Below, piece by piece: positions 12,218 through 64,000 of a DNA stretch of 64,000 nucleotides; the first letter of the stretch is position 1; every line of letters starts with the position of its first letter. The translations under genes were made by a program, and so were the position numbers. The DNA is from Pyropia haitanensis (Eukaryota; Rhodophyta; Bangiophyceae; Bangiales; Bangiaceae), in contig SDUX01000005.1 of NCBI GenBank assembly GCA_008729055.1, positions 546,801 to 610,800 of the forward strand, given 5' to 3'. The notes beneath the pieces were generated by a model. That model saw nothing but the letters and a program-made list of their open reading frames with translations, had not been told where the DNA came from and searched no databases.

Positions 12218-12504
12218 GAGGACATCGACTCGGAGTCCCCTCCTTTGGTGAGGAAACTGAGTTGGTTTCTCTCCCCCTACGGCACCGTGACTTCGGGCCG
12301 TCTCATCGACTCCCCCTCGTACTCCGAGGTTCGCGGGGCGACAAGGTGAGCGTCCGGAGTTCGGACGGGGACGCGGAGTAACGACCCCTCACCGCTTTCG
12401 TTGCGTAAGCGGAGGGGCGGTTGTGTTCCGTGCTCCCACGCCGACGATCCCCGACTCTGGGCACCGTAACGTCATTTTGGTGACTCAACTCGAGTCCCGG
12501 AGTG

Positions 12505-14265: not shown

Positions 14266-14302
14266 CCGCTGGAGTCGAGTTGACCCCACAGACCTCGGCG
14301 GC
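14253..14302 (+). promoter_or_regulatory. -1 programmed ribosomal frameshift signal (gag-pol)
   Basis: GGGAAAC at 14,253-14,259 fits X XXY YYZ exactly in the gag phase (G GGA AAC), four codons before the frame ends in TAG. The pol frame opens at 14,253, just after an in-frame TGA at 14,250. Five nt downstream a two-part stem can form. GCCGC (14,265-14,269) pairs with GCGGC (14,298-14,302), and CGAG (14,276-14,279) pairs with CTCG (14,294-14,297). Heptamer, spacer length and stem are all standard for -1 frameshifting. The stem was found by eye and not folded. Confidence 0.8.
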
Positions 14303-28602: not shown

Positions 28603-28724
28603 TCAGCCGACCAGGATGTCCACCGCGCGTACCAGGTCCCCCCCCGCCTGGCGCAGCGCGCGCACCGCGTCGGCGCGGGGAAAGCCCAACTCCATCAGCT
28701 GCGACAACGCATCGGGGTTGACCG

Positions 28725-28755
<31 letters not shown>

Positions 28756-46936: not shown

Positions 46937-46946
46937 GATCCGGGTG
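46937..46946 (+). repeat. 10-bp direct repeat flanking the large DNA transposon, left
   Basis: GATCCGGGTG occurs here and at 61,510-61,519 in the same orientation, directly outside the paired inverted termini. It is a candidate target-site duplication; the KDZ group usually makes one of about 8 bp, so two of the ten bases may match by chance. Confidence 0.55.
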
Positions 46947-46960
46947 AGGGTGTATATACA

Positions 46961-46987
46961 TGCCCGGAGCTCCATTCGGGAAACTCG
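46961..46987 (+). repeat. terminal inverted repeat core, left
   Basis: The 27-bp core begins TGCCCGGAGCTCCATTCGGG and ends AAACTCG. It is the inverted counterpart of 61,469-61,495 with one mismatch, and contains the palindrome GGAGCTCC. Weak similarity (about 7 of 14) continues outward to 46,947. Confidence 0.7.
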
Positions 46988-47045
46988 GCTTGCGCCAATC
47001 AGAAGGCGGCATACGATTCAATCGTGGGTGTGGGCCTGGGCGGGG

Positions 47046-47098
47046 CGATCGCGCCTGGATACCGTGGTTTCATATGATCGACCCACAGAGAACGATCG
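47046..47098 (+). promoter_or_regulatory. left subterminal GATCG motif cluster
   Basis: CGATCG at 47,046 and 47,093 and GATCG at 47,076 lie within 55 bp. The right end carries five such motifs (61,367, 61,384, 61,409, 61,425, 61,445). Clustered short motifs inside both ends are typical of transposase binding sites. This is inference only. Confidence 0.35.
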
Positions 47099-47450
47099 TC
47101 GCAGGGACAAATATCATCATCGGTCGGTCCGCGGCGGCGGTTTCGCGCTGCGCTTCCCGCGCCGGCCCCCGCCGTCCGCCGCCGCCGCGCTTCGCGCGCC
47201 TGCGCTTCGCTTCCCGCGCGTCCGCGCTGGCCAGCTGTGCATCGCTCCCGCGTGAATGGTGGTGCCAGCCGGCGGCGGTTTTTTTTCCGGGGGCCGTTGC
47301 TGCGGCGCCTGTGCGCAGGCTCTGGGCGCGCTACGGCCGCTTTGGGTGGCGATGCGTACCCGCGTGTTGCAACACACTGCGCCTGCAGGTATGCACCGGG
47401 TCGTTCTTCTTTTGCGGGCCCCGCGTTCGGCCGCGCGCTCCGGGCACGGG

Positions 47451-47460
47451 TAAATATATA
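47451..47460 (+). promoter_or_regulatory. TATA-like box upstream of the 824-aa gene
   Basis: TAAATATATA lies 153 bp before the ATG at 47,614 and is followed by a pyrimidine-rich leader, in a region otherwise above 65 percent GC. Confidence 0.5.
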
Positions 47461-47613
47461 GCGGCGGTCACTGCGCGTCTCTCCGTCGCGGCTCCCCGAC
47501 CCCACCACACGCCTCTTGCTAACTGATGCCTGTACTCACACGCCTCATCTCCTTTCCTCTACTCCCATCCCTCTCCTGACCCCTTTGCCTCCCTCATCTC
47601 TTCCCGTAGTGCC

Positions 47614-50088
47614 ATGGCGACTACACCGCGGCCTGTTGTCGGGGCGGCTCGGGCGGCTGCGCTTCCAACGCTGACGGCGGCCGCTGGCGACGCTGCGGTG
47701 CTGGCGAGGGCCGCGTCGGCTGCGGCGACGCCGTTGGCTGCGCCCACGCCAGCCGGTGCGCCCACGACGGCGGGTGCGCCCACGACGGCGGGTGCGCCCG
47801 CGCCAGCGGGTGCGCCAGCACCGGCGGCTGCGGCGAGTACGGCCACGGGGGCTGCTTCGGTGGCTGCCGCTGAGATGGCGGCGGGCGCGCCGGCGGTGGC
47901 GGGTGCGCCGGCGGCGGCGGCTGTGACGGCGGCGGCGGCTGTGCATGCGGCGGCGGCTGTGCCGGCGACGATGTCTGGTCCGGCGCTGGGGGCCGGGGTG
48001 TCGCTTGTGGCTGGGTTGGCGCCGGCGGATGTGGCTGGCGGGGCTGCTGGGACGCGGGTGGTGGCTGGGCCGTTGATTGAGTCTGGTCGTCCGGCTGAGG
48101 GCCGTACTTGGGGCTCCGCTGCACCGTCGCTTGCTTCGGGGTCTCGTTCTAGCGGCTCATCCGGCGATGGTTCCGCTGGGGACGACGCGGCAGCCGGTGT
48201 GCGTGGCTTTGTGCGCACGGGTGGGACGGCAGGGGCGGCACGTGGTCGCGTCCTTCAATCCCCGCCAGGGCGACCTTCCGGCGGCTCCCGCCCCCAGGCG
48301 CCTCCACGGTCTACCCCGCGTCGTCGCCTACGGTCTGACACCGCAACGCGGTCTGCAGCTGACGCCGGGCTACGCCGCTTGCGGGTATACATCGCCGCTC
48401 TCAAGGGGACGAGCCGCGTGCGTGAGTCGACGCTCAGGTCTGCGGCTGCGATCATTGCCGCGGCGCAGGCTATTGAGTCTACCAACTCCGAGCTACGTCT
48501 CTCTGTCCAGCTCTCGGGGGTGGACCCGGACGGTGTCATTTCCTGGGCCAGCCTGCACGGAGCTGGTCGTCTTCTCGACCCTGTTGTGACGAGACTGTTT
48601 GCGCAGATTCACCAGTACTCCCGTGGCCAAGACGGTCTCGTTCGTGCGGGCGCCACACTGCGCTGCCCCCCCGCGCACAACATCGGGTCTTATGCGGGCG
48701 GCGCTGCACCTGTGAGTCCTTCACGCGGCAGCTCGGCTTCTCCGCGGGCTCCTGGCGACATGACGGAGGAGGAGATTCTTGACATCTTCACGTCGCCCAT
48801 CGACAGCTGGCGCCCGCCTCCTCCCGGTGTCCTGGAGGACGTTGCTGCGCTGCGGGCTGCTACCGTCGGCGAAGGTGACTCTGTGGAGCCGGACCGGATG
48901 CTGGAAGGCGCCGATCTCCCCAGAGAGTTGTTTCCCCCTCTGCGTGCAGGTGAGTCCGCCACGAGCGCAGCGCCGGTGCCTGCGGAAGGGCTGGTGCTGG
49001 AGACGCTTGTGCCGCTGGCGCCCCACACCCCGTCGGACGACTCTATCCGGCATATGGAGACGTTGCTGAAGGCAGCCGGCCGGCAGCGGTCCAAGACCAT
49101 CCGCGTCGTTCTCCGGGCTGTGATTGCGCATTTGACGTCGCGCCCGGGCACGCGCAGGTGCGACATCCAAGAGCGCCTCGCGAGCTGGTGGTCCTACAAG
49201 CTGACGAGTGGGACGCTCTCTGGAACTCCCGAGCCGTGGCCCATTGACGTGGCGGTTCCTGCACGCATGACTACAACCTCGCAGCGCGTGGCCAACAGAG
49301 GCAACGAGACCAAGATGGTCACATTGAAGCGCTTGCCTACGAACGACAGCTCTTCTACTCAAGACGAGGTGGTGGCCAGTTTGCTGTTGCTTTGGGACAA
49401 GGAGGAGTACGCCCGCACCTCGATGCTGAACGAGCTGTTTAATGCGGAGGCGACGGCCGCCGCGGCAGCCGAGAGACGTCGCGCGTCCAAGAAGATGCGA
49501 GAGCTTGCTGCTGCCGCGGCGTCTGCTGCTGCTGCGTCTGCTGCTGCTGCGTCTCCTGCTGCTACGTATGCTGCCGCCGCACCTGCTCCCGCCGCGCCTG
49601 CCGCGGCTGCTGTACCTCCGCTCCCTGCGGGATCTATTGGTGCTGCTAGGATAGCGACTGCGACGGCACCCCCCCCGCCTGCTCGTGCTGCTCCTGTTCT
49701 TGCCCCTCGACCGCCAGCCTTTATCTCAGCTCCGGGGCAGTCATCCGCTTTGCCAGCGCAGCTACCACCGGCGACTGTGGCGCTAGCGCCTGCGGCGACG
49801 GTGACGATGACGCATGCACCAACCGTGACCGCGCCGCCATTGACGGATGGGACAGTGGCGCCACGACGAGCGCCAGCAACTGACCTGTCAGCGGTACAGC
49901 AGATGGCTATTGCGGCAGCGGAAAAGGCGGCTGCCTCTGCCGCGAATGCTCGCAAGCTGGCTGCAGTGGCGGCTGCTCGGAAGGCTCAGGCCGACGCGGC
50001 CGCGACAGCCGCTGGATCTTCTGCAGCGGCCAATGCAGCCAACCGTGGTTTGCGCCCTGGAAACCCACCTGGTAGGTCACTTGCATGA
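47614..50088 (+). CDS. 824-aa accessory protein of the transposon, unknown function
   Basis: ATG at 47,614 opens 824 codons ending TGA at 50,086. Residues 1-150 are Ala/Gly/Pro-rich with tandem GAPTTA-like repeats. Residues ~230-640 have normal composition and look globular: a helical stretch RRLRVYIAALKGTSRVRES, an acidic DMTEEEILDIFTSPIDSW, and an RSKTIRVVLRAVIAHL helix followed by CDIQERLASWWSYKL. From ~610 a charged helix (RRRASKKMRELAAAAA) leads into a long Ala/Pro tail. I do not recognise a family. Its place inside the terminal repeats, with its own TATA box, suggests a transposon-carried DNA-binding or accessory factor. It has no RT, DDE or SWIM signature. Confidence 0.7.
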   Translation: MATTPRPVVGAARAAALPTLTAAAGDAAVLARAASAAATPLAAPTPAGAPTTAGAPTTAGAPAPAGAPAPAAAASTATGAASVAAAEMAAGAPAVAGAPAAAAVTAAAAVHAAAAVPATMSGPALGAGVSLVAGLAPADVAGGAAGTRVVAGPLIESGRPAEGRTWGSAAPSLASGSRSSGSSGDGSAGDDAAAGVRGFVRTGGTAGAARGRVLQSPPGRPSGGSRPQAPPRSTPRRRLRSDTATRSAADAGLRRLRVYIAALKGTSRVRESTLRSAAAIIAAAQAIESTNSELRLSVQLSGVDPDGVISWASLHGAGRLLDPVVTRLFAQIHQYSRGQDGLVRAGATLRCPPAHNIGSYAGGAAPVSPSRGSSASPRAPGDMTEEEILDIFTSPIDSWRPPPPGVLEDVAALRAATVGEGDSVEPDRMLEGADLPRELFPPLRAGESATSAAPVPAEGLVLETLVPLAPHTPSDDSIRHMETLLKAAGRQRSKTIRVVLRAVIAHLTSRPGTRRCDIQERLASWWSYKLTSGTLSGTPEPWPIDVAVPARMTTTSQRVANRGNETKMVTLKRLPTNDSSSTQDEVVASLLLLWDKEEYARTSMLNELFNAEATAAAAAERRRASKKMRELAAAAASAAAASAAAASPAATYAAAAPAPAAPAAAAVPPLPAGSIGAARIATATAPPPPARAAPVLAPRPPAFISAPGQSSALPAQLPPATVALAPAATVTMTHAPTVTAPPLTDGTVAPRRAPATDLSAVQQMAIAAAEKAAASAANARKLAAVAAARKAQADAAATAAGSSAAANAANRGLRPGNPPGRSLA

Positions 50089-50262
50089 CCTGCTGGGGTC
50101 GCTGCGAGCAGGGAGACAGAGGCGGTTCCTGAGTTACGGCCATTGAGTTCTGCAGCGACCTCATCCACGCTACGCCATGGGCACGTGCTCATCAAGGGGA
50201 CAACGGGCGCGACGGTTTCCCGAGGCGTCCTCGACCTGGACCGCCGCTCGATGCGCGGCCTT

Positions 50263-51663
50263 ACTGGCTGGGCGGCGGGGGCGGGGGTGGTGCGGCTCGC
50301 CTGGGGGGGGGGGCCGTGGTGCGGCCGGCCGGGCGGGGGGGGGGGGGGGCACTGCGGCTGGCTAGGCGGGGGGGGGCGGCGGTGGTCCGGCTGGCCGGGT
50401 CGGGGGGGCGGGGCTGGTGCGGCTCGCCTGGGGGGGGGGGGCCGTGGTGCGGCCGGCCGGGCGGGGGGGGGGGGGGGCACTGCGGCTGGCCGGGCGGGGG
50501 GGCGCGGCGGTGCTGCGGCTGGCTGGGCGGGGGGGCGGGGGTGGTGCGGCTCGCCTGGGGGGGGGGGCCGTGGTGCGGTCGGCCGGTCGGGGGGGGGGGG
50601 GGGCACTGCGGCTGGCTAGGCGGGGGGGGGCGGCGGTGGTCCGGCTGGCCGGGTCGGGGGGGCGGGGCTGGTGCGGCTCGCCTGGGGGGGGGGGGCCGTG
50701 GTGCGGCCGGCCGGGCGGGGGGGGGGGGGGGCACTGCGGCTGGCCGGGCGGGGGGGTGCGGCGGTGCTGCGGCTGGCTGGGCGGGGGGGCGGGGGTGGTG
50801 CGGCTCGCCTGGGGGGGGGGGCCGTGGTGCGGTCGGCCGGTCGGGGGGGGGGGGGGGCACTGCGGCTGGCTAGGCGGAGGAGGGCGGCGGTGGTCCGGCT
50901 GGCCGGGTCGGGGGGGCGGGGCTGGTGCGGCTCGCCTGGGGGGGGGCAGGGGATGGGCAGAGGCTGGCTCCGAGGGGGACCGGGGACTGGGGCGGGGCTT
51001 GCTTTGCCTTAGTGGCGCGGAGGCAGTCCGGGTGGCGCTCCTAGCCACCGACGTTGCGATGTTGGGAAGGTGGCGGGCTGGGCTGTAGATGGGGTGACGG
51101 GCAGGCAATTGGGGCTGGTCCTGGTCGCCGCGGAGCAGCTCAGCGTCGACTGAGCGCTCATGCTAGACGGGGGGACCGAGGGGCGGCTCGACGTGTAGCA
51201 GGAGGGTGGGGGTCGCGCTCTTGCTCATTGCATCATCCTGAACAAACCACTGCGCAACGCCTAAGACATGTGTTCGCTCCACGCAACGAGCCTCTATGCG
51301 GGCTTGAAGGGAGCGCAAGCAGGCGATGCGGCACGCGAGCTAGTGTAGTTGACGAGGATAGAAATCAAATTGAAGGAATATATCATGGGCGCATTGGATT
51401 CAACTTGCTCCTTGGGTTCCATAGCACACGGCAGCCCCATGCGGGCCAGAGCATTACAGAACATACGCACGTGTCTAACTACCATTTCGCCCCGCCTTGG
51501 CTTTTTGTGACCGTTGCAGCCCGCCATTGTCTTGGGCGTGGTAGCACACCGCCCACCATCACCCTTGTCAGTCGCTCCGCGGCGACGCCCACCCGCGCAG
51601 CAGTTGGCCTCGGTCCCATGGTGCCGGCCTCGGTTCCATTGCTGTGACTTGTTCTCTAGGTCT
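50263..51663 (+). repeat. left inverted arm with poly-G higher-order repeat
   Basis: The arm matches 59,457-61,105 in inverse orientation. Its outer part (50,263-50,945) is a G-rich array with a 254-bp higher-order period: GCACTGCGGCTGGCTAGGCGG starts at 50,349, 50,603 and 50,857. Each period is made of two ~127-bp half-units with G runs of 7-14. The inner part (50,946-51,663) is unique sequence that appears identical to its partner; both encode the same 197-codon open frame. The match breaks down after GTTCTCT.GGTCT near 51,663. Confidence 0.88.
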
Positions 51664-51803
51664 ACGGCTGAGGTGTGGGCTGGGTTGGCGCGATATAGTG
51701 CTTCGACCGAGATATGTACGGCGGCTGCGGGCCTGAGAGGGCAAGCGTGCCCCATAATAGTTCCGTCTGCCAAGTGAGCCCGTCGGGTGCGCCGTTTTAC
51801 TTC

Positions 51804-52562
51804 TTATTCAAGTGTTCTCCCCAGTTGCCGATGCCATTTCTCAACGCAGTTGTTCCAGTCTTGGCCATGATCGACACATGCGCTCCCTCCGCCAGCTCCG
51901 AACAGTCCATCCCTCCACGTCTCCGCTCTCGCATCCGCACCCGCAGCTCCGGTAGGAAGCCCAATAGGCGGCCTGCGCATCACCGCCGACGCGGCACGGA
52001 CGAGGCGTGCCGCGGCAGAGGAGCGGGGGCGGGCCGCGTCGGCGGCGGCAGCGTTGCCATCGTCGTTGCCACTGTCTGTGGCGGCCGCGGCGGCGGCTGC
52101 GGCGGCCTCAACGGCGGCAACCTGGTCGGGTGGCGTCCACGACCGCCCGGGTGTGGGCGGGGGTAGGTCGCTGAGCGCCTCCGCGTCGAGCAGCGCGTCG
52201 CGCATCCTCCGAAAGCCAGCCAGGGCCGTCAGATGATGGCACCGCCACCGCCGCGAGCAGCGCGACGCCATAAATCGGCGACCCTCTTCTTCGGATGCAG
52301 GATGGGCAGAGGGCGCCACCGGCTGCCGTTCCAGGGCCGACGGCATCCGGCTCCGCAGCCGTCGACGCCGGCAACCCGACGGACACGCCACCAAGAACAC
52401 TGGAGCGTCTGGCAGTCTTGCCAATGGCGACCCCGAGAGGCAGAGGAGAGACAGGGCCCTCGTAGCCCGCGCCCCGCCGCACCGAGCGCAGCAGTTGACC
52501 AGCCGGCCCCAATGGACCGATCGATCCCGTCGGCCGCCTTCGCGCCGCACGAGTGCGGACAC
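51804..52562 (-). CDS. possible minus-strand gene inside the transposon
   Basis: A minus-strand frame of up to 252 codons ends TGA at 51,804. Its second half has protein-like composition, with EALSDLPPPTPGRSWTPPDQ, an Ala run, DSGNDDGNAAAADAARPRS and an end DWNNCVEKWHRQLGRTLE. An overlapping minus frame (52,632 to 52,108) begins MVAAADAVGMGTAV and also looks plausible, so a spliced or frameshifted gene may run through both. I recognise no domain. Low confidence. Confidence 0.3.
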   Translation of the reverse strand: MSALVRREGGRRDRSVHWGRLVNCCARCGGARATRALSLLCLSGSPLARLPDAPVFLVACPSGCRRRRLRSRMPSALERQPVAPSAHPASEEEGRRFMASRCSRRWRCHHLTALAGFRRMRDALLDAEALSDLPPPTPGRSWTPPDQVAAVEAAAAAAAAATDSGNDDGNAAAADAARPRSSAAARLVRAASAVMRRPPIGLPTGAAGADARAETWRDGLFGAGGGSACVDHGQDWNNCVEKWHRQLGRTLE

Positions 52563-54845
52563 GAGCCTTGAACGTCAAAGACACGGACGCGACGGCGGTG
52601 CCCATGCCAACCGCGTCCGCCGCCGCGACCACCAGCGCGGAACCTGCACCAAAGGACCAGCATCAAGACGAAAAGGGGGTGGGGGTGGAGGCGCGGCGCC
52701 ACCAAACACACAGGGACGGGAGGGGAGGTGCGCAACCCAAAAAACGCCGGGAGGGGAGGGGTGGTGCGCACCGAGCAAAAACGAGCGCATCTGTCCACTC
52801 CGAACAGAAAGGGACGCCGAGAACTGCGCGCCAGCGTCCATGGAGAGGGGAGTGGCGCGGCGGCGCGACAAAGGACGAGCCCAGCGGCCGCGACCGCCAC
52901 ATGTGCGGCGCCGAAGCGGGCTTCCGCTATGGGGGATGGCAGCGGGGTAGCCACTGACGAACATCCCATCCGTGCCCGCCGCGACCTGTGGGGCGCAGAC
53001 CCGTTGACGACCGCGTTGTCGGTTGCAGCAAAGAAACATGGGCGCCAAGCGGCACACGGCGCCAGGCAGGCGAAGTGGAAGTCGCCAAGCGGCTCGCGTG
53101 CAAGGGCAGACAGTAAGTCTCCGGAGACCGACTTGCAAAACCGATCCAGCACCAACGCCACGCGGGCAAAATAGTCACAAGACTTACCGTTCGACCGAGA
53201 TGCAAGAAGAGAAAAAAACAGGTGAACGGTACTCAAGATGCCCAAAGAACTATGTGCTGAAAAAAAAAAACCGCACAAAATCTTTCTCACCCAGGCGTCC
53301 CACGTGCGCGGGCGAGGGCTGCGTGGGGCGACAAGCCAGACGAAATCGTTGGCCATCGGACAGCTAGAATATGAAATGTTGGCCTCAAGAAAGTTTTGAA
53401 ATGCTCGCGGGAGTCCTAATTGACGCCTATGCCGTCTCTTCATTGGCTGACGCACGGGATTTTACTATTCTCTGAGCATGAGCCTGTGTCCACATGAAGA
53501 CGAGATATGATATTCACCTGCAAAACTGATGACCAGGTCGCCTGGGTAGCCGGTCTTCATTCGTGGCTGATGCCCTTCTCCGTGCTTGGCTGGAGAGCCT
53601 CGACATCAGCGAGATGAGTACGGCAACGTTCTTCGTTCTACGGAGCGGTGTCCAAGCGGGGTGGCCAGGTGGTCCGCAACTGCTAGGTTTGGCCGATCGT
53701 GGGATGTCACTGCCACTGTGTGCCCGCCCCGACGTCTTGGGATGGCCAGCAGTAGTGCCCAATACGTCATCAGGAGACACCGCGACCTGGCGCGCGCCCC
53801 ACGCCAGGTTAACGGTCTGACGCCAGGCGACGTCCGCCGCCGTAAGAGATCTGCCCGCTGTGGCCTTCCCCCCGCCCGATGACAACCATCAATCAAGTTT
53901 GCCTGGGCAAGACTACCCTGCCACCAGGTGCCTGGCAAAGCGCGGAACGAGCGCACACAGTTCAGCACGGTCGATGCGCATGCAAATTTGCTGGTGCCTG
54001 CCTTTGGCGCTGGTAGCGCTTGCGGTGCCCGGTGCAGGTCACTGTCATGAGAACAAGCCGACAGGACAATCCGTCCGGAAGCATGCCGCAGCATACCCAC
54101 ACAGAGACCGTCTCTTTTCCTCATGCACTTGCTACAATCGTCTTTTCAGGCCGAGACGCGTTGCCCGCCTGACCCGTGCTCGTGCCATTGTGACCGCCTT
54201 CCGGTGGTTTCCGGCATGCGTATTCGGTCGTGCCACACTGCTGGAGGGACCACAACGCGGCGGCGTCGAGGCGCCGCTCCTGAATGGTACCCTTTGTGGG
54301 TACGTACGCCTGTTCAAAGCAGCGTCTGGAAGGGACACCATCGGTACTTCTATGTCAGCTGTTGTACTGAGCCTACTGCTTCGCGCAGCCAGTGGTGGCG
54401 CCCATCACTGCGTGTTGCCTGCCGAGAGCACATCTGACTGATCAGCGCACACAAGTCGCTACAGACCCAGCCTCTAGTCCCGACGGCACTGAAGCCCCCG
54501 ACAGAGTTCTGAGGGAACCAAATGGTGAGAGGGGCTCTGAGTACGCACTGCCCTGTGCTTGCGGTTACTGTTTGTGTCGAAGTTGGCTTCAGATGTCGGA
54601 GGTGCAAGTTTTCGAACGTAGCCACCGCATAACTTTACATCGTTTAGCTGCACAAGTCTTCAGATGCCGTCACTTCATCTTCTGTACTTGAAACGATCGG
54701 AAAAACGGCTGTCACCAGGTCCTTAGAGCGTGTCGCGCTCGCTCACCCGGGTACCACGCCCCGCTGGTCAGCACCGCGACCTGCTCTTGTCAGTCGCGAA
54801 CGTTTTTCCACTCTTTCCTCTTGGGCCGTCGCCCGTCCCTCCTTC
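52563..54845. other. unassigned stretch upstream of the transposase
   Basis: Composition is mixed, with AT-richer parts at 53,180-53,540 and 54,430-54,700 (for example GAAAAAAAAAACCGCAC on the plus strand). A plus frame at 53,860-54,441 has one hydrophobic stretch (ICWCLPLALVALAVPG) but no domain. A minus frame at 53,455-52,229 is long but low in acidic residues. The 120 bp before the transposase start is pyrimidine-rich leader (CGTTTTTCCACTCTTTCC). Confidence 0.4.
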
Positions 54846-57800
54846 ATGGACGGCGACGTCGACAACCATGAAGCTTCTGACGCTTCCGACGTCGCGGAGA
54901 TAGCCGTGCATGCTGGTGTGGTGGCTGTCCAAGTGCATCTCGCCGCAGATCTTCCTTATCTACTCGGCAACAACCCGGAACAGCTCGAACGGGCTCCCCG
55001 ACGGACGGAGCCATTCCGGCGGCGAGTGCGTCGGCGGGTACGCGCCCCACCTGGTGCAGTTTTTCGTCAGCGACGACGCCGTGCGGCAGGCGGGGCCCAT
55101 GCGGAAGCCGACGGCTCCTCTTCAAGCTACAGCGACGACAGCGGTGGGCCCCAGGATCTTTTTGAACCGGCTGGAGGGGGCGCTGGTGGAGGCGGGACCG
55201 GGGATAGTGCCGGTGGGTCGGACGATGATGGCGATGCCGACGAGGAGGACGTACGGCCTCGGACACTGGCGTCCGTAGACTACTACTCCAAGGTGCTGTC
55301 AGACGCTCTCACTCTGGCCTTGGACAACGAGCCGCAGCCAGATGCGTCGCGGTCGTCCCGCAGCTGTCGTGCTGTAGCTGTTGCTGGGGGAGCTGCAGTC
55401 ATCATTTCTGAGGGTGAGAAGGCTTTCTGTGTGTGGCTTGCCAAGCCCAGGAGCTGCGTGCTATCAATGTGCTCGTGCGGTGGCCGGCGGGGCGCCGAGT
55501 CGGTCGAGATGCGGTACATGCTGGACAGGTGCTCTTCTTGCGTGCATGCTCGCGCTCTGCTCGCGTGCTCCCTCACGCTAGCTTTGAGCCTCCAACTGGC
55601 AGGCCTTCCGCAGCTGCTTGAGCGGTTTCCGGTGCTTGACAACGCCTTGCCGGCGAGGGATGAGGCCGCCGTGGTGCACTACGGCACGAACACGGCCAAG
55701 TATCGGGGCGCCTTTGCGGTCCTGACTGACGGGCTCTGGTCGTCGGTCGTCATCAGGCCACGACTTGCGGTAGCGAGGAGCCGTAAGCGGATGCTGATGA
55801 GAGCTGCTTGCACGCAGCTGAGTTGTGCGAAGAGGCACTGGTGGTGCAGACACGCAAGGGCGGTGACGGCCTGGTGCACTGAGGCTTTGGGGATCGGCGC
55901 AGCTGCCGCTGCACTTGGTGGGCGTCCTCCTGGTGTCCAGCTTGTGGACGTGGCAGGAAATCCTGTTCCAGCTCGCGGTCGTCGACGGGAGCAGGGCGAC
56001 ATTGACGGCCGGTTTGCAGATGAGACGCGGTGGCGCGCGGCGAGGAACATGCTGCCGTGCGAAGGGGAGATTGACATGTGCGCTTTATACGACAAGATGG
56101 CAGACTTGGGGCGGGACGCTGGCGAGGAGGTGCACCTACCGATGGTACTGTTTGAGGACCGCTGCTTCAAGTGCACCGCTGCGTACCGGCACGTCGGGGT
56201 CAAGAACACCGGCGGGGTGCTGCACACGTTGCGAGGCCGCATCTCTGTGCGGCTGCTGCGGTGGACCTGCGTGTGCGGCACGCAGGTCCCTTTCGATGGG
56301 GCTCAAGACGGCTTGTTTGCTTCCACTCTGTCCACCGTCTTCACGCGGACCTACATGGACGTCATGGCGCAGTCTATTTTCACGGGCAATAGCACGCTCT
56401 CCTCCGCTGCTGGGGTGATGTGTTTCCTGCTTGAGTCAACCAAGTCTTTGAGTGGTGCCCTGTCAACCCTTACGAGGCAGACGCTGATCAAGGCGCTGCA
56501 TCGCTTCTCTAGGACGCTGATTGTGCCTGCTGCATTGTTCCGCTGCGACAAGTGCTACCTATCTCCGCAGCGCCCGTACCCGGCCGTGATCATGGATGGC
56601 CAGGTGATTTCGGTGCAGCGCAACCAGTCCGAGGCTCTGACGCGCGTCGAGCAGGATCTCTGCGTTGTTGCCATGGACACGGGACTTGGTGCCTGCATTC
56701 CCCTGCCGGCGCTTCGCGGGGTCATACGGCGGCTGACGCGGAGTGACCGTGACAAGGCCATGCGCCTGTCCAAGGCCGACGAGAAGATCTTGCGGTCGTT
56801 TTTTCAACTTTCTGTAGGCGACCCGGATCCGTATCCTGCTGGCCCAGTGCGCAGCCGACCGGGCAACATCATGTGGGCGGCCTCGTACCTGTTCAGGTGC
56901 TACTACTCCATCGAGCCGGCCGCTGTGGATGATGCGCCAGGGCATGATGCGGCCGCCGAGCCGGCACAAGTGGGAGGTGTGGCGGCAGGGGCGGGTGCGG
57001 CTCCATTTGGGCCAGCGCCTCCAGGCGCTGCTGGTCCCGAGCAGGGTGGTGCCGCCGCCCCTGGTCCTGATGCTGCTCCTGCTGGTGGCGCTGAAAACTC
57101 AGGCAGTGAGGATGGCGCGGAGCCTGTGGGGACTTTCACCTGTGCCGAGGTGGAAGAGGCTGTCGGCGTGTGCAACGACCGCGCGGTTGCCAGCGACCGG
57201 TGGCGTGTAGTGCGTGACTTCTTTCACACGTTCCTTGCGGAGCCTGTCGTCGGAGCATTGGCTGGATTGAACCGGGGCCAGTTGAGGCGGATGGCGGCGA
57301 AGCAGGTCACGTGCACGGCTGCAACTGCGCATCAGTGGAAGAGGTATGCGTCGGCGGCAGAGTCTGTCCTCATCCTCTCGCCGTTTCTCCTGTTGATGGA
57401 CCGTGAACAACCACCTGACCCGCTCAAGATACGCGCTGTTGGAGAGTTGCTTCTGTTCACGTGCGGAGTGGACGCTCATTGGGAGACGATGTGGCGGGGG
57501 CGTGCAACACCTGCTGCTCTGGAGTTTGAGGACCAGTGGAAGGAGACGTCGGCGCAGCACTACGCCACCTGGCTTGCGGCGAGGCCTGGTGCCGTCCCTC
57601 CGCCGGTCACACGCCTGTCGTGCGAGCTCCACTCGCAAGCAAGAGCGCTGGCGCAGGCTTTAGAGTGCGTTACGGGTCATGTGTGGCCCGAGCTGGAGCC
57701 GGTTCGACCGTTCATTGTTGACAGCAAGGCCAATGCTGTCAATGCCGCGCGCGCCGCCAAGGCGAAAGTCAGCCGCGCGGCCATTGAGGCCGAGCTAGTG

Positions 57801-59123
57801 CGCGTCCTGGGAGCAGACAGCTGCAGGCACACGTTTGTGGAGTCCGACGCCTTCCTGCCGGGGATCGAGAACTTCCTGTGCCCCTGTGGGACACTGCTTG
57901 GATTTGACTTTCTTGAGCGCGCCGAGAGCCCCGCGCACGTTTTGGCGTCACTGGTGCAGCACTTCCCACTTCTTCCCCGAGTCATGTACTACGACACCGC
58001 TTGTCAGCTGGCGCGGAACGCCTCTCGGCGAGTGCCATGGCTGGTGAACACGTCGGACGCTGCGTCGAGCGTGGACCGGGCTCACAACACTGGGGACCAG
58101 CACAAGTGCTCCGACATTTATGATGCGGACCGGTATCCATCCCGGTCGGTGGCCCACAGCACGACGGTGGCGGAGAGTCGCCACGCCATCTACAAGACTT
58201 TCACCGCCCACCTCTCCCACCTCCGTCAAGACCACTTCATTGTCCAGATGCGCCTTCTCTCTGGGGTGATTAACGCGCGCGTCCTCATGCGACGGGCTAT
58301 GGGCAAGGAGACCAGCCACCGCCTGCTCTGCAGATTCTACCACCGGCACATCGCTGGCCATTGCCAGCGTCGCTTGTGCTCGTGCCATCAATGGCGGGAA
58401 CACCAACAACCCGTGCCGCCTCAACAACCTGGTGGACCGCCTCCGCCTGCTGATGGAGCTCCTCCTCCCCCGCCGGTTGCTGCTGCTCATGCTCTTCCTG
58501 CTCCCGTGCCGGCTGCACCTGGTGGTGCTCCTCCTCCGCAGGCTGCTGCTGCTGATGCTTCCGCTGCTCCCGCGCTGGCTGCTCCCAGTGGAGCTCCTCC
58601 TCCGCAACGGCCTCCTGGTGCTGACGCTCGTCGTCTTCCCGCGCCGGATTTTGTTGGTGGTGGTCCTTCTGGCTCCCCCGCGCCTGCTGGTCGTGGCGCC
58701 CCTGTTGATACTGCGCCACCGTCGCGTGGTAGCACGCTCCATACGCCTCCCCCACCTGCTAGTAGCGGCCTTCATTCTGCGGCTTCCCTTCGTGGTGCCG
58801 GTGGCGACATCTCCGACCCTCTACCGTCTGTTGGTGGCGTTGTTTCGGCGGCGGTTTTGAACCAACCTGCCCAGGGACACAACAGAGACGTAGCTGGAGG
58901 CGAGAGTGGTGGCGGGATGTCTGAACCAAGTGCTCAGGATGAGCTTTCTCGGTTGATTGCCACCATTGCTGAGGGATTCAGCAGTCGGCGTACGGCTGCC
59001 TTGCAGACCGCCCCTCCACTTCCAGAGGAGGAGATGCCGAGTGATAATGAGAGCAGTCATGTGGGTGAGAGCAGTGCGCAGGAGCATGCCCAAGAAGAGG
59101 ACCTGGACTCGACTGGTGTGTAG
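54846..59123 (+). CDS. KDZ-like transposase with cysteine clusters, 1,425 aa
   Basis: ATG at 54,846 opens 1,425 codons to TAG at 59,121. An acidic N-terminus precedes a SWIM-type zinc finger (CSC near residue 209, CVH near 232). Further cysteine clusters follow: FKCTAAYRH and WTCVCG (about 440-475), then CDKCYLSPQRPY (about 566). A putative catalytic aspartate is in VIMDGQVISVQRN (about 582), a second in YYDTACQLARNASRR (about 1,048) and a glutamate in HSTTVAESRHAIYK (about 1,108), preceded by DRAHNTGDQHKCSDIYDADR. This order, and the DTACQ and AES phrases, match the KDZ (Kyakuja/Dileera/Zisupton) transposases with CxC zinc clusters, as I recall that family. A Pro/Ala/Gly linker occupies ~690-760 and a Pro-rich tail ~1,190-1,330. 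The frame is intact. Confidence 0.7.
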   Translation: MDGDVDNHEASDASDVAEIAVHAGVVAVQVHLAADLPYLLGNNPEQLERAPRRTEPFRRRVRRRVRAPPGAVFRQRRRRAAGGAHAEADGSSSSYSDDSGGPQDLFEPAGGGAGGGGTGDSAGGSDDDGDADEEDVRPRTLASVDYYSKVLSDALTLALDNEPQPDASRSSRSCRAVAVAGGAAVIISEGEKAFCVWLAKPRSCVLSMCSCGGRRGAESVEMRYMLDRCSSCVHARALLACSLTLALSLQLAGLPQLLERFPVLDNALPARDEAAVVHYGTNTAKYRGAFAVLTDGLWSSVVIRPRLAVARSRKRMLMRAACTQLSCAKRHWWCRHARAVTAWCTEALGIGAAAAALGGRPPGVQLVDVAGNPVPARGRRREQGDIDGRFADETRWRAARNMLPCEGEIDMCALYDKMADLGRDAGEEVHLPMVLFEDRCFKCTAAYRHVGVKNTGGVLHTLRGRISVRLLRWTCVCGTQVPFDGAQDGLFASTLSTVFTRTYMDVMAQSIFTGNSTLSSAAGVMCFLLESTKSLSGALSTLTRQTLIKALHRFSRTLIVPAALFRCDKCYLSPQRPYPAVIMDGQVISVQRNQSEALTRVEQDLCVVAMDTGLGACIPLPALRGVIRRLTRSDRDKAMRLSKADEKILRSFFQLSVGDPDPYPAGPVRSRPGNIMWAASYLFRCYYSIEPAAVDDAPGHDAAAEPAQVGGVAAGAGAAPFGPAPPGAAGPEQGGAAAPGPDAAPAGGAENSGSEDGAEPVGTFTCAEVEEAVGVCNDRAVASDRWRVVRDFFHTFLAEPVVGALAGLNRGQLRRMAAKQVTCTAATAHQWKRYASAAESVLILSPFLLLMDREQPPDPLKIRAVGELLLFTCGVDAHWETMWRGRATPAALEFEDQWKETSAQHYATWLAARPGAVPPPVTRLSCELHSQARALAQALECVTGHVWPELEPVRPFIVDSKANAVNAARAAKAKVSRAAIEAELVRVLGADSCRHTFVESDAFLPGIENFLCPCGTLLGFDFLERAESPAHVLASLVQHFPLLPRVMYYDTACQLARNASRRVPWLVNTSDAASSVDRAHNTGDQHKCSDIYDADRYPSRSVAHSTTVAESRHAIYKTFTAHLSHLRQDHFIVQMRLLSGVINARVLMRRAMGKETSHRLLCRFYHRHIAGHCQRRLCSCHQWREHQQPVPPQQPGGPPPPADGAPPPPPVAAAHALPAPVPAAPGGAPPPQAAAADASAAPALAAPSGAPPPQRPPGADARRLPAPDFVGGGPSGSPAPAGRGAPVDTAPPSRGSTLHTPPPPASSGLHSAASLRGAGGDISDPLPSVGGVVSAAVLNQPAQGHNRDVAGGESGGGMSEPSAQDELSRLIATIAEGFSSRRTAALQTAPPLPEEEMPSDNESSHVGESSAQEHAQEEDLDSTGV

Positions 59124-59456
59124 AGTGGTTGTGGCTGATTGTTTGGAGCGTCGTGTCGATGAGGGTAGCAATGCGGACGAGGACCGATGCATTCTTGGAG
59201 CACGTCTTTCAATTGAAATGCTCAAGACGCCCATGCTGTAGCTACTGCGGCTTGATAGCCAAGAACGCAGCGCTCAGCACGTAAGGATTGCGACAAGCCT
59301 GAGCGGCATCCTCAACTCCGTGCAATCCCCGGCCGCTCTTCCCCACCGCAAAAACGTCCGCTGCCTCTCATGCCTGCAAGTCAAACGCCAGTAGGCGGCA
59401 GTCTGCAACGGGCCTAGTGGGCCAAAGATGGCGCCTCGTCTCAAACCAGGAGCAGG
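59124..59456 (+). other. 3' flank of transposase gene
   Basis: Unique sequence of balanced composition lies between the transposase stop and the right inverted arm. It probably contains the 3' untranslated region. No AATAAA and no other gene were recognised. Confidence 0.5.
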
Positions 59457-61140
59457 AGACCAAGAGAACGAGTCGCAGCAATGGAACCGAGGCCGGCACC
59501 ATGGGACCGAGGCCAACTGCTGCGCGGGTGGGCGTCGCCGCGGAGCGACTGACAAGGGTGATGGTGGGCGGTGTGCTACCACGCCCAAGACAATGGCGGG
59601 CTGCAACGGTCACAAAAAGCCAAGGCGGGGCGAAATGGTAGTTAGACACGTGCGTATGTTCTGTAATGCTCTGGCCCGCATGGGGCTGCCGTGTGCTATG
59701 GAACCCAAGGAGCAAGTTGAATCCAATGCGCCCATGATATATTCCTTCAATTTGATTTCTATCCTCGTCAACTACACTAGCTCGCGTGCCGCATCGCCTG
59801 CTTGCGCTCCCTTCAAGCCCGCATAGAGGCTCGTTGCGTGGAGCGAACACATGTCTTAGGCGTTGCGCAGTGGTTTGTTCAGGATGATGCAATGAGCAAG
59901 AGCGCGACCCCCACCCTCCTGCTACACGTCGAGCCGCCCCTCGGTCCCCCCGTCTAGCATGAGCGCTCAGTCGACGCTGAGCTGCTCCGCGGCGACCAGG
60001 ACCAGCCCCAATTGCCTGCCCGTCACCCCATCTACAGCCCAGCCCGCCACCTTCCCAACATCGCAACGTCGGTGGCTAGGAGCGCCACCCGGACTGCCTC
60101 CGCGCCACTAAGGCAAAGCAAGCCCCGCCCCAGTCCCCGGTCCCCCTCGGAGCCAGCCTCTGCCCACCCCCTGCCCCCCCCCAGGCGAGCCGCACCAGCC
60201 CCGCCCCCCCGACCCGGCCAGCCGGACCACCGCCGCCCTCCTCCGCCTAGCCAGCCGCAGTGCCCCCCCCCCCCCCCGACCGGCCGACCGCACCACGGCC
60301 CCCCCCCCAGGCGAGCCGCACCACCCCCGCCCCCCCCGCCCAGCCAGCCGCAGCACCGCCGCGCCCCCCCGCCCGGCCAGCCGCAGTGCCCCCCCCCCCC
60401 CCCGCCCGGCCGGCCGCACCACGGCCCCCCCCCCCAGGCGAGCCGCACCAGCCCCGCCCCCCCGACCCGGCCAGCCGGACCACCGCCGCCCTCCTCCGCC
60501 TAGCCAGCCGCAGTGCCCCCCCCCCCCCCCGACCGGCCGACCGCACCACGGCCCCCCCCCCAGGCGAGCCGCACCACCCCCGCCCCCCCCGCCCAGCCAG
60601 CCGCAGCACCGCCGCGCCCCCCCGCCCGGCCAGCCGCAGTGCCCCCCCCCCCCCCCGCCCGGCCGGCCGCACCACGGCCCCCCCCCCCCAGGCGAGCCGC
60701 ACCAGCCCCGCCCCCCCGACCCGGCCAGCCGGACCACCGCCGCCCTCCTCCGCCTAGCCAGCCGCAGTGCCCCCCCCCCCCCCCGACCGGCCGACCGCAC
60801 CACGGCCCCCCCCCCAGGCGAGCCGCACCACCCCCGCCCCCCCGCCCAGCCAGCCGCAGCACCGCCGCGCCCCCCCGCCCGGCCAGCCGCAGTGCCCCCC
60901 CCCCCCCCCGCCCGGCCGGCCGCACCACGGCCCCCCCCCCCAGGCGAGCCGCACCAGCCCCGCCCCCCCGACCCGGCCAGCCGGACCACCGCCGCCCCCC
61001 CCGCCCGGCCAGCCGCAGTGCCCCCCCCCCCCCCCCGCCCGGCCGGCCGCACCACGGCCCCCCCCCCAGGCGAGCCGCACCACCCCCGCCCCCCCGCCCA
61101 GCCAGCCGCAGCACCGCCGCGCCCCTCCGCCCGGCCAGCC
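59457..61140 (-). repeat. right inverted arm with poly-C/poly-G higher-order repeat
   Basis: Inverse copy of the left arm. The inner unique part (59,457-60,165) matches 50,946-51,663 closely, with about three differences near the inner edge. The outer part is a C-rich array on the plus strand with period 253-254 (CGCAGTGCCC at about 60,258, 60,511 and 60,765) and about one more period than the left arm. G runs of 7-14 therefore lie on the minus strand here and on the plus strand in the left arm, so both face inward. Confidence 0.88.
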
Positions 61141-61468
61141 GTACCGCCGCCGCTCCCCCTCGACAGCGGCCTGGCCAGGCGCCCCGCCGCCGCCGCCAGC
61201 TGATCCCGCTGGTGGGGGCTCTGGGTCCCGCTAAATGCCTCTCATACTCGTCAGCTAACGTGGGAGATAGTTTGGCGCCGATATGGCAGTATGAGTCCTA
61301 CCCCCCCTGCCGAAGCGCTAGCCCGACCGTGTGGGCAACAGCTGTCCTGTCGGCGAAACAGTGGAAGATCGACGAAGAACTGGCGATCGTGCTGCAAACA
61401 GCGTTGATGATCGCTCTCTCCCGTCGATCATCTGCACACTGCCTGATCGGCACCCCATTGGACGAGCG
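61141..61468 (+). other. right subterminal region of the transposon
   Basis: Balanced unique sequence with five GATCG/CGATC motifs at 61,367, 61,384, 61,409, 61,425 and 61,445. No gene was recognised. It has no obvious long match to the left subterminal region apart from those motifs. Confidence 0.45.
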
Positions 61469-61495
61469 CGAGTTTCCCGGATGGAGCTCCGGGCA
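61469..61495 (-). repeat. terminal inverted repeat core, right
   Basis: The reverse complement begins TGCCCGGAGCTCCATCCGGG and ends AAACTCG, matching the left core with one change. Confidence 0.7.
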
Positions 61496-61509
61496 GGCGT
61501 TCACTCCAT

Positions 61510-61519
61510 GATCCGGGTG
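61510..61519 (+). repeat. 10-bp direct repeat flanking the large DNA transposon, right
   Basis: GATCCGGGTG, the same as 46,937-46,946 and in the same orientation. Confidence 0.55.
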
Positions 61520-61716
61520 GCGGTTGTGGCGGCCCTTCCCCTGGTTGGACTTGGTGGCCTGCTACTTACGGTTTCTCTTGCATTTGTTCTCATCGATTTT
61601 CACTGCGTGATTTCGTGCTTTTCGCCCTTTTTTCCCACTGGGTTTTTGGGCGGATTGCATCTGTGTGAGGGTTTTTCGCTTGCATCTGAGTAGAGGGATT
61701 TTAGCGTGGAGCGGGG
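61520..61716. other. AT-richer spacer between transposon end and hairpin cluster
   Basis: The plus strand holds T runs (GCCCTTTTTTCCCACTGGG, GGGTTTTTGGGCGG, GGGTTTTTCGC) and, read on the minus strand, two copies of CAGATGCAA about 30 bp apart. As the 3' side of the Fanzor-like transcription unit on the minus strand it may include its 3' untranslated region or the right end of a Fanzor element. Confidence 0.45.
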
Positions 61717-61838
61717 TGCCCCGGCGGGGCAGGTGCACGCTGGCACTTGGCCCGCTGGAGGCGCCCCTGAGAGGGGGCGCCCTGGTGGCCCCTCGGGGGG
61801 TGGTGTGGAGAGCTCTTAGGGGCTTGGCCCGCGGGCCA
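61717..61838 (-). ncRNA. candidate omega/f-RNA: hairpin cluster 3' of the Fanzor-like gene
   Basis: Within 122 bp, read 3' of the Fanzor-like stop on the minus strand, lie several perfect inverted repeats. These are the palindrome TGGCCCGCGGGCCA (61,825-61,838), AGAGCTCT (61,809-61,816), GGCGCCCC-TGAGAG-GGGGCGCC (61,760-61,781) and TGCCCC-GGC-GGGGCA (61,717-61,731). There is also a weaker CCCC/GGGG pair at 61,789-61,798. OMEGA guide RNAs of TnpB and Fanzor are structured and encoded at or just beyond the 3' end of the nuclease gene. Position and structure fit, but no RNA evidence exists here. Confidence 0.4.
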
Positions 61839-61893
61839 CGCGAGATCCTCTTTGTAAAACAACGTTGCTTTGGGTTCTCCTTCCCCTTGGGCT

Positions 61894-64000
61894 TTAGCCT
61901 TTTCCCTTACCTCTGGCTGTTGAGGTGGGCAAGTGTGTGTGGGACTCCCTGGCCCGTTCCTTCTGGTAGCCCCCTGTTCTCTGGCGGTGGCGACGCGGGG
62001 CGGACAAGGGCCGCAGAACGGCCAATAACGCTACAAGCGGGTCCGCCGCTGCCCCGCCCGCGCCGCGCCCATCCGCCGCCCCGCCCGTGCGGCCGTTCCA
62101 GTCGATCCGCGGCCACCGTACGTGGGCCGCGGTCCGGAACGGGTGGCACGGGCGCCCGCGTATCCACTGCCACGTGCGCCAGCCGAGGTTGGCCGCCGCC
62201 GTCACGTCGCGGTTCACCATCCCTCGGGCACACGTCGGCTCCACGCAAACCTTGACGCACCTCACCACCGCCTTGCGGTCCGCCCGAAAGACCGGGCCCG
62301 CGTGCGGCCGCGGGTTTGCAGCCGCCCGTGCCGTCGCGGCGTTCTCCGCCTCGGCGCGGCACGCCGCCCGCCGGCGGGCGTACCGCACCGGCGCGCTGCG
62401 GTCCCACCACCCGCGCTGCACGCCGCTCGGCCGGCCGGTGCGGCCGCGCACGCCACGGCGCCGCCCGCACACGCGCGTGCCGCGGGGCACTTGCGGCGGA
62501 GACGCGGGCGTCGGGAACACCAGCGCCAGCCGCGTGTGGCAGCCGTCGCAAGCTGCACTCGTGTTGCGCTCGGGCACGTCCACCGTCCAGCACAGGTGGC
62601 GCAGGCGACGCGTCAGGTGCAACGCCCCGCCGCGCGTCGCAGCGTCGCCAATCGCCACCGCCACGACAGCCCCATCCACCACACGGCGTAAGCGGCCGCC
62701 GGTCAGTTCGCGCGCCACCTGCGCAGCAAACCTCCCGCGCTGCAGCACTGCGTGCAGCCGCGCCGTACGCAGACCGCGCGTTCCCTCCGCGCCCCACAGG
62801 TCTCCGTACAGCGCCTGCGTGCGGGCGGCCAGCCACGCGCGCGACGCGACGCGCACCGCTTCTGGGTCTGCCACGGAAATCGAAGCGTGCTCGGTCACTT
62901 GCTCGGGCGTCCGCACGCCCGCAGTGTCACCCAGCTGCGTGATGCGCTCCACAGCCGCCGCGCGATGGGCTGCCACCGCGCGCGCCGTCATGCCATTGCC
63001 ACACGCCACATGATACCGGCCCCGTGACAGTTTGTACACGTCGCCCGCAGGGGGGGGGGCACCGTGCCCGCGACTGGCGTGCGTCGCCGCGCGTACGCGG
63101 CCGGCCAGGCCACGCAGCGCAGCCGCGTACGCCTCCGCCGCAGTGCAGTCAGCCTCCATGGCGCCCGCACGGTCCACTCGGTACGCCTCCAAGGGCGCGC
63201 GGCCGCCGTCGACGTCGGCCGCCACGACCCCGCGCGTCGACCGCGGAAGGCACGCCCTTGCCACGCGCACCGCCGCGTGCCGAGGCACGCGCCACCGGCG
63301 GCGCCCGGTCGCCGCCAGCAGTCCGCCCACGGCGGCGCAGAGCTCGACGCGGCCGTCTCGCCGTGCACGCCGCGCGGGGCCACGCACGCGGCGCACACAG
63401 CGGCGCGTTGCGTGCCTCTCGTCAGCGACCGCCATCGCGCCGGGCGCTGCGGGCGCGGACGGGCTGCCCCGACTGCCGGGCGATCGTGCGGTACGCGCTG
63501 CCGCAGTCGCTTGCGACGCAGCCGCACTGCCGTCGCGGGTCGTCCCGCCCCCAGCCCCCGCCACCTCTTCGACACGCCGCCGCTGAGCTGAGGGTGATCG
63601 CGCACCCGTGTCTTCTCCCGCCCTCGGCCGCGTACGGCGCTTTCCAGTGCGCCCGCGGGGTGCCTGCAGCGGTACCACCGCCGGTGCGATCCCGGCCGCC
63701 GCGTCGGCCGCCGCCTCCACCGCCGCCGTAGCCGACGCAGAGAGGCCGGTCACACGCGTCACAACGGCGTCGACCGCCAATGCGGCTCGCAGTAGCGCGT
63801 CATTGGCCACCAGCCGCGCGCGCTCCAGCCGCTGCGCCCAGATTCGAGGGCGCGGTGCCCACGCGGCGGCCTTTGGGCCACTTGACACCGCCGTCAGGAC
63901 CGCGCGGACGCCGGGATCCGCCGACACAATCGTGAGCGTCTTGACATCAGCCACCAGGCAACCCTGCTTCTCCAGCTGTGTCGTTGGCGAGCCCGCCAGC
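61894..64000 (-). CDS. Fanzor/TnpB-like RNA-guided nuclease, C-terminal part (5' end off window)
   Basis: The minus-strand frame is open from the window edge (about 701 codons visible) to TAA at 61,894. RuvC-I is VSADPGVR, with its aspartate at 63,916-63,918. The usual RuvC-II glutamate position reads VVAVAIGDAATRGG, with G in place of E. A glutamate appears instead in DVPERNTSAACDGC (62,569-62,571), the rearranged Fanzor pattern. A zinc finger is formed by CDGC and CVEPTC. RuvC-III is MVNRDVTAAANLGW, with its aspartate at 62,206-62,208. Between RuvC-I and the rest lies a ~130-residue Ala/Arg/Pro insertion, and a basic linker splits the zinc finger. The family cuts DNA guided by an omega RNA. 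The N-terminal recognition and wedge domains should lie beyond the window. Confidence 0.85.
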   Translation of the reverse strand, partial: LAGSPTTQLEKQGCLVADVKTLTIVSADPGVRAVLTAVSSGPKAAAWAPRPRIWAQRLERARLVANDALLRAALAVDAVVTRVTGLSASATAAVEAAADAAAGIAPAVVPLQAPRGRTGKRRTRPRAGEDTGARSPSAQRRRVEEVAGAGGGTTRDGSAAASQATAAARTARSPGSRGSPSAPAAPGAMAVADERHATRRCVRRVRGPARRARRDGRVELCAAVGGLLAATGRRRWRVPRHAAVRVARACLPRSTRGVVAADVDGGRAPLEAYRVDRAGAMEADCTAAEAYAAALRGLAGRVRAATHASRGHGAPPPAGDVYKLSRGRYHVACGNGMTARAVAAHRAAAVERITQLGDTAGVRTPEQVTEHASISVADPEAVRVASRAWLAARTQALYGDLWGAEGTRGLRTARLHAVLQRGRFAAQVARELTGGRLRRVVDGAVVAVAIGDAATRGGALHLTRRLRHLCWTVDVPERNTSAACDGCHTRLALVFPTPASPPQVPRGTRVCGRRRGVRGRTGRPSGVQRGWWDRSAPVRYARRRAACRAEAENAATARAAANPRPHAGPVFRADRKAVVRCVKVCVEPTCARGMVNRDVTAAANLGWRTWQWIRGRPCHPFRTAAHVRWPRIDWNGRTGGAADGRGAGGAAADPLVALLAVLRPLSAPRRHRQRTGGYQKERARESHTHLPTSTARGKGKG

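Follow-up and report, generated by a model that had tools for sequence, protein, structure and literature searches.

A divergent Fanzor-like gene, likely for an RNA-guided nuclease, in a repeated mobile element of a red alga

The window, meaning the whole stretch of DNA analysed here, is 64,000 nucleotides long (C6:546801–610800) and belongs to a genome that was searched over 52.9 Mb in 136 contigs. Its right part carries a portion of a long Fanzor-like gene, belonging to a repeated element, together with the remains of a nested insertion (Table 1). Further to the left, the window contains a Ty3-type retrotransposon gag-pol at 12484–18242 (+), with a chromodomain match (PF00385, E = 0.001) below the cut-off, and an ORF at 21129–23687 (+) with matches to a reverse transcriptase and a DNA N6-adenine methyltransferase (PF05869), which we take by resemblance to be DIRS-like. 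A single open frame of 4588 residues occupies 28606–42369 (-), and its start appears to resemble VPS13.

Table 1. Features of the Fanzor-like locus in window numbering
Feature	Position	Strand	Remark
Candidate omegaRNA, stop codon to left end of the element	46590..46775	-	structured region
Displaced last codons of the Fanzor-like gene	46773..46841	-	by comparison with the C11 copy
Nested 15.2-kb insertion, ends TGTAGCGTT...AACGCTACA	46842..62035		separates the gene body from its 3' end and the RNA region
KDZ-like transposase ORF	54648..59123	+	within the nested insertion, not in the Fanzor element; CxC4 match E = 1
526-bp young repeat at the right edge of the insertion	61510..62035	+	LTR-like
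Fanzor-like ORF, part inside the window	62036..64000	-	residues about 718 to 1372; extends right to 66150
RuvC-III Asp D1315 codon in NRDVTAAAN	62206..62208	-	place derived from residue numbering
Alternative RuvC-II Glu E1194 codon	62569..62571	-	place derived from residue numbering
RuvC-I catalytic Asp D745 codon, first of DPG	63916..63918	-	place derived from residue numbering, read in the sequence

On the minus strand, the frame 61894–63999 has no stop up to the right edge of the window, and in the same contig it continues into a stop-to-stop frame of 1556 residues (61897–66564 in window numbering). The Met start of the gene lies at 66150 (C6:612950), the upstream limit of the frame being 66564, so that the window copy encodes 1418 residues, about 717 of them to the right of the window. 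This right-hand sequence, to which the initial annotation had pointed, contains neither an unrelated upstream protein nor a stop before RuvC-I. Two uninterrupted copies, C11 and C2, have 1394 residues each, counted from a Met one residue upstream, and end in '...PLVAASGEGGGAAAAGGGEAPHA'. The tail of the window protein after 'PLVA' is translated insertion and not the gene's own C-terminus. The stop at 61894, first taken for the end of the gene, had to be given up as such because the insertion occupies 46842–62035 and the gene resumes at 62036; this stop is thus located in foreign sequence. The base composition at codon positions is coding-like along the Fanzor-like frame, except for a low-complexity insert (816–930) and the last 48 residues.

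The window copy of the element has its left end at 46590, and the nested insertion is bordered by a 5-bp duplication, AGCGG, at 46837–46841 and 62036–62040. For the 526-bp repeat, at least 39 matches besides itself were found, 96–99% identical (40 of 76 candidates scored), and many pairs of them are about 8.02 kb apart. A C-rich tandem repeat at 60180–61140 was also noticed within the insertion, and the ORF located there is tentatively called KDZ-like on its motifs in addition to the weak CxC4 match. Two more insertions to the right of the gene (67486–68042 and 68137–68897) are absent from the C11 and C2 copies, and the first of them recurs in L033. Since the window copy is interrupted by the 15-kb insertion, it is unlikely to be the working one, and split in this manner it is probably not an active source.

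The RuvC-I, zinc-finger and RuvC-III motifs, which had been proposed to follow one another on a single open frame, were found in this order at the places claimed. In numbering from the Met at 66150, RuvC-I is represented by SADPGV with Asp D745, Glu E1194 is found in ERNTSAACDGC, six residues ahead of the first CxxC of the zinc finger, and Asp D1315 of RuvC-III belongs to VNRDVTAAANL, C-terminal to the zinc finger. PMC10711439 describes DPG combined with an alternative Glu six residues before the zinc finger as a molecular fingerprint by which Fanzors are known and which <1% of TnpB-family homologs show; it names TDG in the wedge domain as characteristic of Fanzor1. In the window protein TDG is at 679–681, and TNG was read in the relatives P0001–P0003. 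The catalytic residues of SpuFz1 are given as D383, E541 and D606 (PMC11423790), and D745, E1194 and D1315 would be their counterparts.

The full ordered motif (DPG..ExxxxxxCxxC..C-C..RD), a Bao/Jurka-like form with widened spacing, and DPG with ExxxxxxCxxC alone were obtained in 0, 2 and 32 of 20,000 protein shuffles, respectively. Among 263 frames of at least 150 residues in 80 kb, the full motif is present in the Fanzor-like frame alone and the two-part form in one other. The published spacing D-X(125,275)-[TS][TS] was not found in the protein, where 451 residues separate D745 from the TS of the zinc motif, nor was the published C4 finger CxxC...CxxC, the distal Cys pairs being CxxxC/CxxxxC; the zinc pairs are about 93 residues apart.

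The window protein matched no TnpB/Fanzor profile of Pfam or NCBIfam, an outcome that the initial annotation had named among those counting against the Fanzor reading. P0001, P0002 and P0003 matched no such model of Pfam, and NCBIfam and PHROGs gave no TnpB/Fanzor match for any family member scanned. In favour of the reading, PF07282, the zinc domain of TnpB/Cas12f, was matched below the cut-off by four relatives (13.7–19.6 bits vs 26.3). It was the sole match of P0006 (E = 0.001), of L101 (E = 0.007) and of L094 (E = 0.02), and ranked second for P0005 (E = 0.07). When hhalign was applied against a set of nine bacterial TnpBs (A6: InsQ and eight others), which holds no Fanzor1 proteins, the NRD motifs came into register with E = 0.0047 and a probability of 7%, and after the addition of family F with E = 0.00029 and 40%. 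Another comparison paired the zinc motif (E 0.017, probability 3%). Sequence searches of a PDB set that may lack Fanzor1 chains found no Fanzor chain, and no reference Fanzor was found in viral contigs, one of the patterns used having too short a gap. An AlphaFold model built from an alignment of 7 sequences had a mean pLDDT of 35 and is unusable for the RuvC or wedge fold.

Protein searches returned P0001 (80% identity), P0002 (48%) and six more relatives, and a further search for reference Fanzors returned only family members already known. Seven of these eight proteins cover at least one catalytic site in homologous sequence and keep it; P0007 stops short. Conserved across relatives are an N-terminal Cys/His cluster (CARCRSR.H...CPAK), T[DN]G, DPG, SRGRY..GNGM, VARELTGG.LRR, GxAATxGG, ExxxxxxCxxC and RDxxAA, the Glu motifs before the zinc finger being, for example, EHNSSQACAGC and EFNTSQACPSC. 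Since the nearest named relative, P0004, is Pyropia yezoensis I4F81_012934 (99% identical over 46% of the query), we infer that the host is a bangialean red alga, which supports the earlier guess at a red-algal genome. Among the papers of the collection searched, none names both Fanzor and Pyropia.

In its own genome, the Fanzor-like gene recurs as five lineages, A, B, D, E and F, and the DPG/E/D set is present in all of them, with one exception in family D. Protein identity is 53–88% by stretch for family B, bar one stretch of 36%, and 66–87% by stretch for family E, some copies of which have stops. Family D is about 50% (49%) identical to family A. The family F copy from C93 has one stop and shares 31–35% with five relatives and, by another measure, 39% with P0006. 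DPG was read in five of six family D copies; the exception is L094, with DLG and a stop within its frame.

Some observations concern exchange between these lineages. At four B loci (C11:374970, C9:5875879, C40:9041 and C9:4364420) the left ends are 99–100% identical to family A, and the gene DNA of the same loci is 85% and then 67–68% identical to it; subfamilies A and B have recently exchanged ends. The C-terminal part of P0003 (~180 residues) is near-identical to that of the window protein, the remainder differing by about a quarter, and this is consistent with an end exchange as between A and B.

The dN/dS values bear on the question of whether the gene still works. They were 0.43–0.59 among three A copies, which differ by few changes, 0.40 for A–B (380 codons) and 0.47 for A–D (1261 codons), and by region of the A–D comparison 0.30 near RuvC-I and 0.41 near RuvC-II. 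Across 65 codons of ZF2–RuvC-III the A–D value rises to 0.79, a poor fit to simple constraint there. This stretch is one of the points in favour of an alternative in which the protein is an old Fanzor that has lost its cutting activity and persists as a decaying passenger of a non-autonomous transposon. Many Fanzor-like copies are indeed deleted, interrupted or frame-broken, including the split window copy, and at all four B loci the C-terminal part lies in a separate frame of 380 residues, the frame break having been read in one of them. Against decay speak the intact 1394-residue frames in C11 and C2, the stop-free frames of 1380–1440 residues in six of nine long family D matches, the A–D ratio over the whole comparison, and the catalytic residues kept in the diverged lineage F, even if the F copy has a stop. 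We regard such decay as unlikely, and as the strongest of the competing explanations.

Gene DNA of this type was matched at no fewer than 47 genomic sites, 40 of the 142 candidates having been scored, and the copies define a mobile element. Nine of 12 left ends, located 3' of the gene, start with (C)TTACCGCTGTGGGGGGACCGACCCC, and L032, L046 and L051 show related variants; the flanks differ at all 12 left ends compared. The right end reads ...GGTCCCCCCACGTCGAATGAGTGTAG. Inverted, hairpin-forming repeats lie near both ends of the element, and no long target duplication was seen there. The cleanest copy, C11:60286–74945, is 14.66 kb long and matches the window copy with 99.2% and 98.5% identity over the two main aligned stretches, and C3:7216842–7220619 is a 3.8-kb deletion derivative keeping both ends. 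Within the C11 copy, at 8.3–15 kb (L053 and L055), several kilobases have an extreme GC content, reaching 0.93 by codon position, and both strands carry long frames there. No transposase was found in four long frames to the right of the gene, where no domain match fell below E 0.2. In a 9.7-kb family D element, whose domain scan covered the C-terminal Fanzor frame only and whose frames were otherwise judged by eye, the Fanzor homolog alone was recognised and no transposase. A search next to one right end of family C likewise identified none. At a distance of some kilobases inward from such an end, L095:1–795 (-) holds a fragment of an AAA/P-loop ATPase (E = 0.0002, below the cut-off), which might belong to the host or act as the element's partner.

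The ~186 nt between the stop codon and the left end align in families A, E and D. Families A and D are identical there at 119 of 185 positions (64%), only slightly more than the 59% for gene DNA, whose best 186-nt window reaches 70%, and the conservation is situated in two blocks (columns 1–20 and 81–120) with A–D identity of 85–90%. RNAalifold predicted 60 pairs, 13 of them with compensatory changes, the structure being derived from the same alignment of five sequences, and several separate helices show such changes. In this five-sequence alignment, paired cells make up 93.0%, vs 86.7% in shuffled and 38–52% in slid versions; none of 500 shuffles attained the pair counts by any one of five measures, and every slid version stayed below them. 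The fold of a single sequence has z = -3.0, one of 200 shuffles folding as well, and the last bases of the element, GGUAA, pair with UUAUC upstream in a closing helix. Rfam gave two matches only (E 0.25 and 0.55), far below gathering scores.

A 16-base core of this region, CTCTCCGACGAGCCGC, occurs 35 times in 53 Mb, and its reversed control 0 times. Of these cores, 25 are within 2 kb of a protein match of the P0006 type; that of the window is at 15 kb because of the insertion. Nine have no Fanzor protein match within 2 kb, one of them (C1:98886) having a DNA match 10 kb off. Conversely, 12 of 37 protein matches, including those of the window and of distant families, are without the exact 16-mer within 2 kb. 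The gene with its structured 3' region has the layout of a Fanzor/omegaRNA system, and by position, structure and covariation the region looks like a guide RNA, a candidate omegaRNA.

At the opposite end, the bases past the right end were read in 30 cases. Of these ends 18, with the window and C11 among them, are of A/B type, and 12 belong to other types. CTTCY follows all 18 A/B ends, among which L069 has an altered last stretch. The other 12 are followed by TTTAC/T (five), TATAC/T (two), CTTAC/T (two) and ATTAC/T (three, family D), and N[T/A]T[A/C]Y fits all 30 flanks. A tie to a Fanzor gene was established for the right ends of A/B and D, the remaining ones being those labelled C, L071 and L080. 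On the gene strand the motif reads 5'-RGAAG (A/B) and 5'-RTAAT (D), its boundary with the element end being fixed to within a few bases. It lies where a target motif (TAM) is expected and may be regarded as a candidate for one; the motifs published for GtFz1 and SpuFz1 are TTAAN and CATA (PMC10432273).

The ends of the element also permit another explanation, namely that the protein is a guide-free transposase or accessory nuclease with a RuvC/RNase H fold acting on these ends, the 3' region being a terminal DNA hairpin. No other transposase was recognised in the frames examined, the inverted repeat GTGGGGGGACCG is present at both ends, and the terminal helices could act as DNA hairpins. However, DPG with the alternative Glu is, as described, the fingerprint of RNA-guided Fanzors (PMC10711439), the structured region reaches ~186 nt inward with its best blocks far from the end, and the compensatory changes occur in several helices, which lie 3' of the gene like the omegaRNAs already known (PMC10432273). 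In our opinion, action without a guide is improbable, somewhat more so than decay.

A composite transposon, in which the ORF at 54648–59123 would serve the Fanzor as its own KDZ transposase, was suggested by two ORFs lying tail to tail in the window and by the CxC4 match, but it is rejected as next to impossible, since this ORF belongs to an insertion with its own 5-bp duplication that is absent from the C11 and C2 copies, and no shared terminal repeats were found above shuffle. The idea of a chance open frame in GC-rich DNA, where long frames are common on both strands, is contradicted by homologs, codon-position signal, motif statistics and dN/dS, and hardly deserves credence.

Summarizing these data, the reading as a Fanzor-type nuclease is the best one, as proposed at the outset. 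It is backed by three findings: several lineages carry the DPG/E/D set, the gene lies in a repeated element, and a structured region stretches from its stop codon to the end of that element. We consider it likely from the sequence features that this gene, carried by a bangialean repeated mobile element in which no transposase was recognised, codes for a divergent Fanzor-like nuclease of the RuvC type that cuts DNA under RNA guidance, and the protein probably works like a Fanzor. The 186-nt region would be transcribed into omegaRNA, with the flanking DNA just past the left end serving as the guide. The nuclease would then cut matching DNA adjoining the target motif, 5'-RGAAG or 5'-RTAAT according to the family, on the gene strand. 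Such cutting might help the element to keep or copy itself, and some other transposase, perhaps acting in trans, would move it.

A more far-reaching version of this reading is possible and is put forward tentatively. The family may be a distinct giant Fanzor lineage, seen so far only in bangialean red algae, in an element without its own transposase. Compensatory changes would preserve its guide RNA even as protein identity falls to 49%, its candidate TAMs would be specific to subfamilies, and loci with the RNA alone would supply a common nuclease with additional guides in trans.

The family bears the Fanzor fingerprint, but its divergence is too great for the present searches to tie it to a known Fanzor; surveys that rely on models of this sort may therefore have overlooked it. 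One genome supplies a candidate guide RNA, defined ends, candidate TAMs differing between subfamilies and several intact copies. This makes two questions testable: what role a Fanzor plays for its element, and in what way the evolution of guide, target motif and transposition is coupled. If the interpretation is true, the compact RNA-guided nucleases would have an unusually large relative in a multicellular red alga.

With 1394 residues, the protein is about twice as long as Fanzor1, the length of SpuFz1 being about 640 residues. It differs from Fanzor1 also by an N-terminal Cys-rich extension, by the distance of ~93 residues between the zinc pairs and by spacing beyond the published ranges. 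With the nine bacterial TnpBs of IS200/IS605 and IS607 it has in common the zinc motif and the (N)RDxNAA register. These TnpBs differ by their length of 362–513 residues, by an upstream Glu (such as IEDL or VENL) in most, as judged by eye, and by DAG, DLG, DRG or DFG at the place of DPG, as seen in the four whose motif was read.

Among mobile elements, Helitron2 with Fanzor1 in Chlamydomonas, as described in PMC3627910, likewise has hairpin-forming inverted repeats near its ends and no long target duplication; this likeness is one of description and not of compared termini, and unlike in Helitron2, no Rep/helicase ORF was recognised here. Fanzor1 was reported from a red alga, Cyanidioschyzon merolae, in 2013, in the element CMe-1A, which measures about 3 kb and has some 150 copies with an identity of around 80% to their consensus (PMC3627910). 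This, too, is a Fanzor in a red-algal repeated element, compared here by its published description. With the Fanzor1 proteins SpuFz1, GtFz1 and PpFz1, as far as they are presented in PMC10432273 and PMC11423790, our protein shares DPG in RuvC-I, the Glu six residues before the zinc finger and the RuvC-III RD. The Spu-1 Fanzor1 element is, as reported, also a repeated element without a transposase. The likeness extends to a candidate RNA region running from the stop codon to the element end, a short conserved motif at the opposite end and the 'ghost loci', a layout comparable to that described by Saito et al. in Spizellomyces (PMC10432273).
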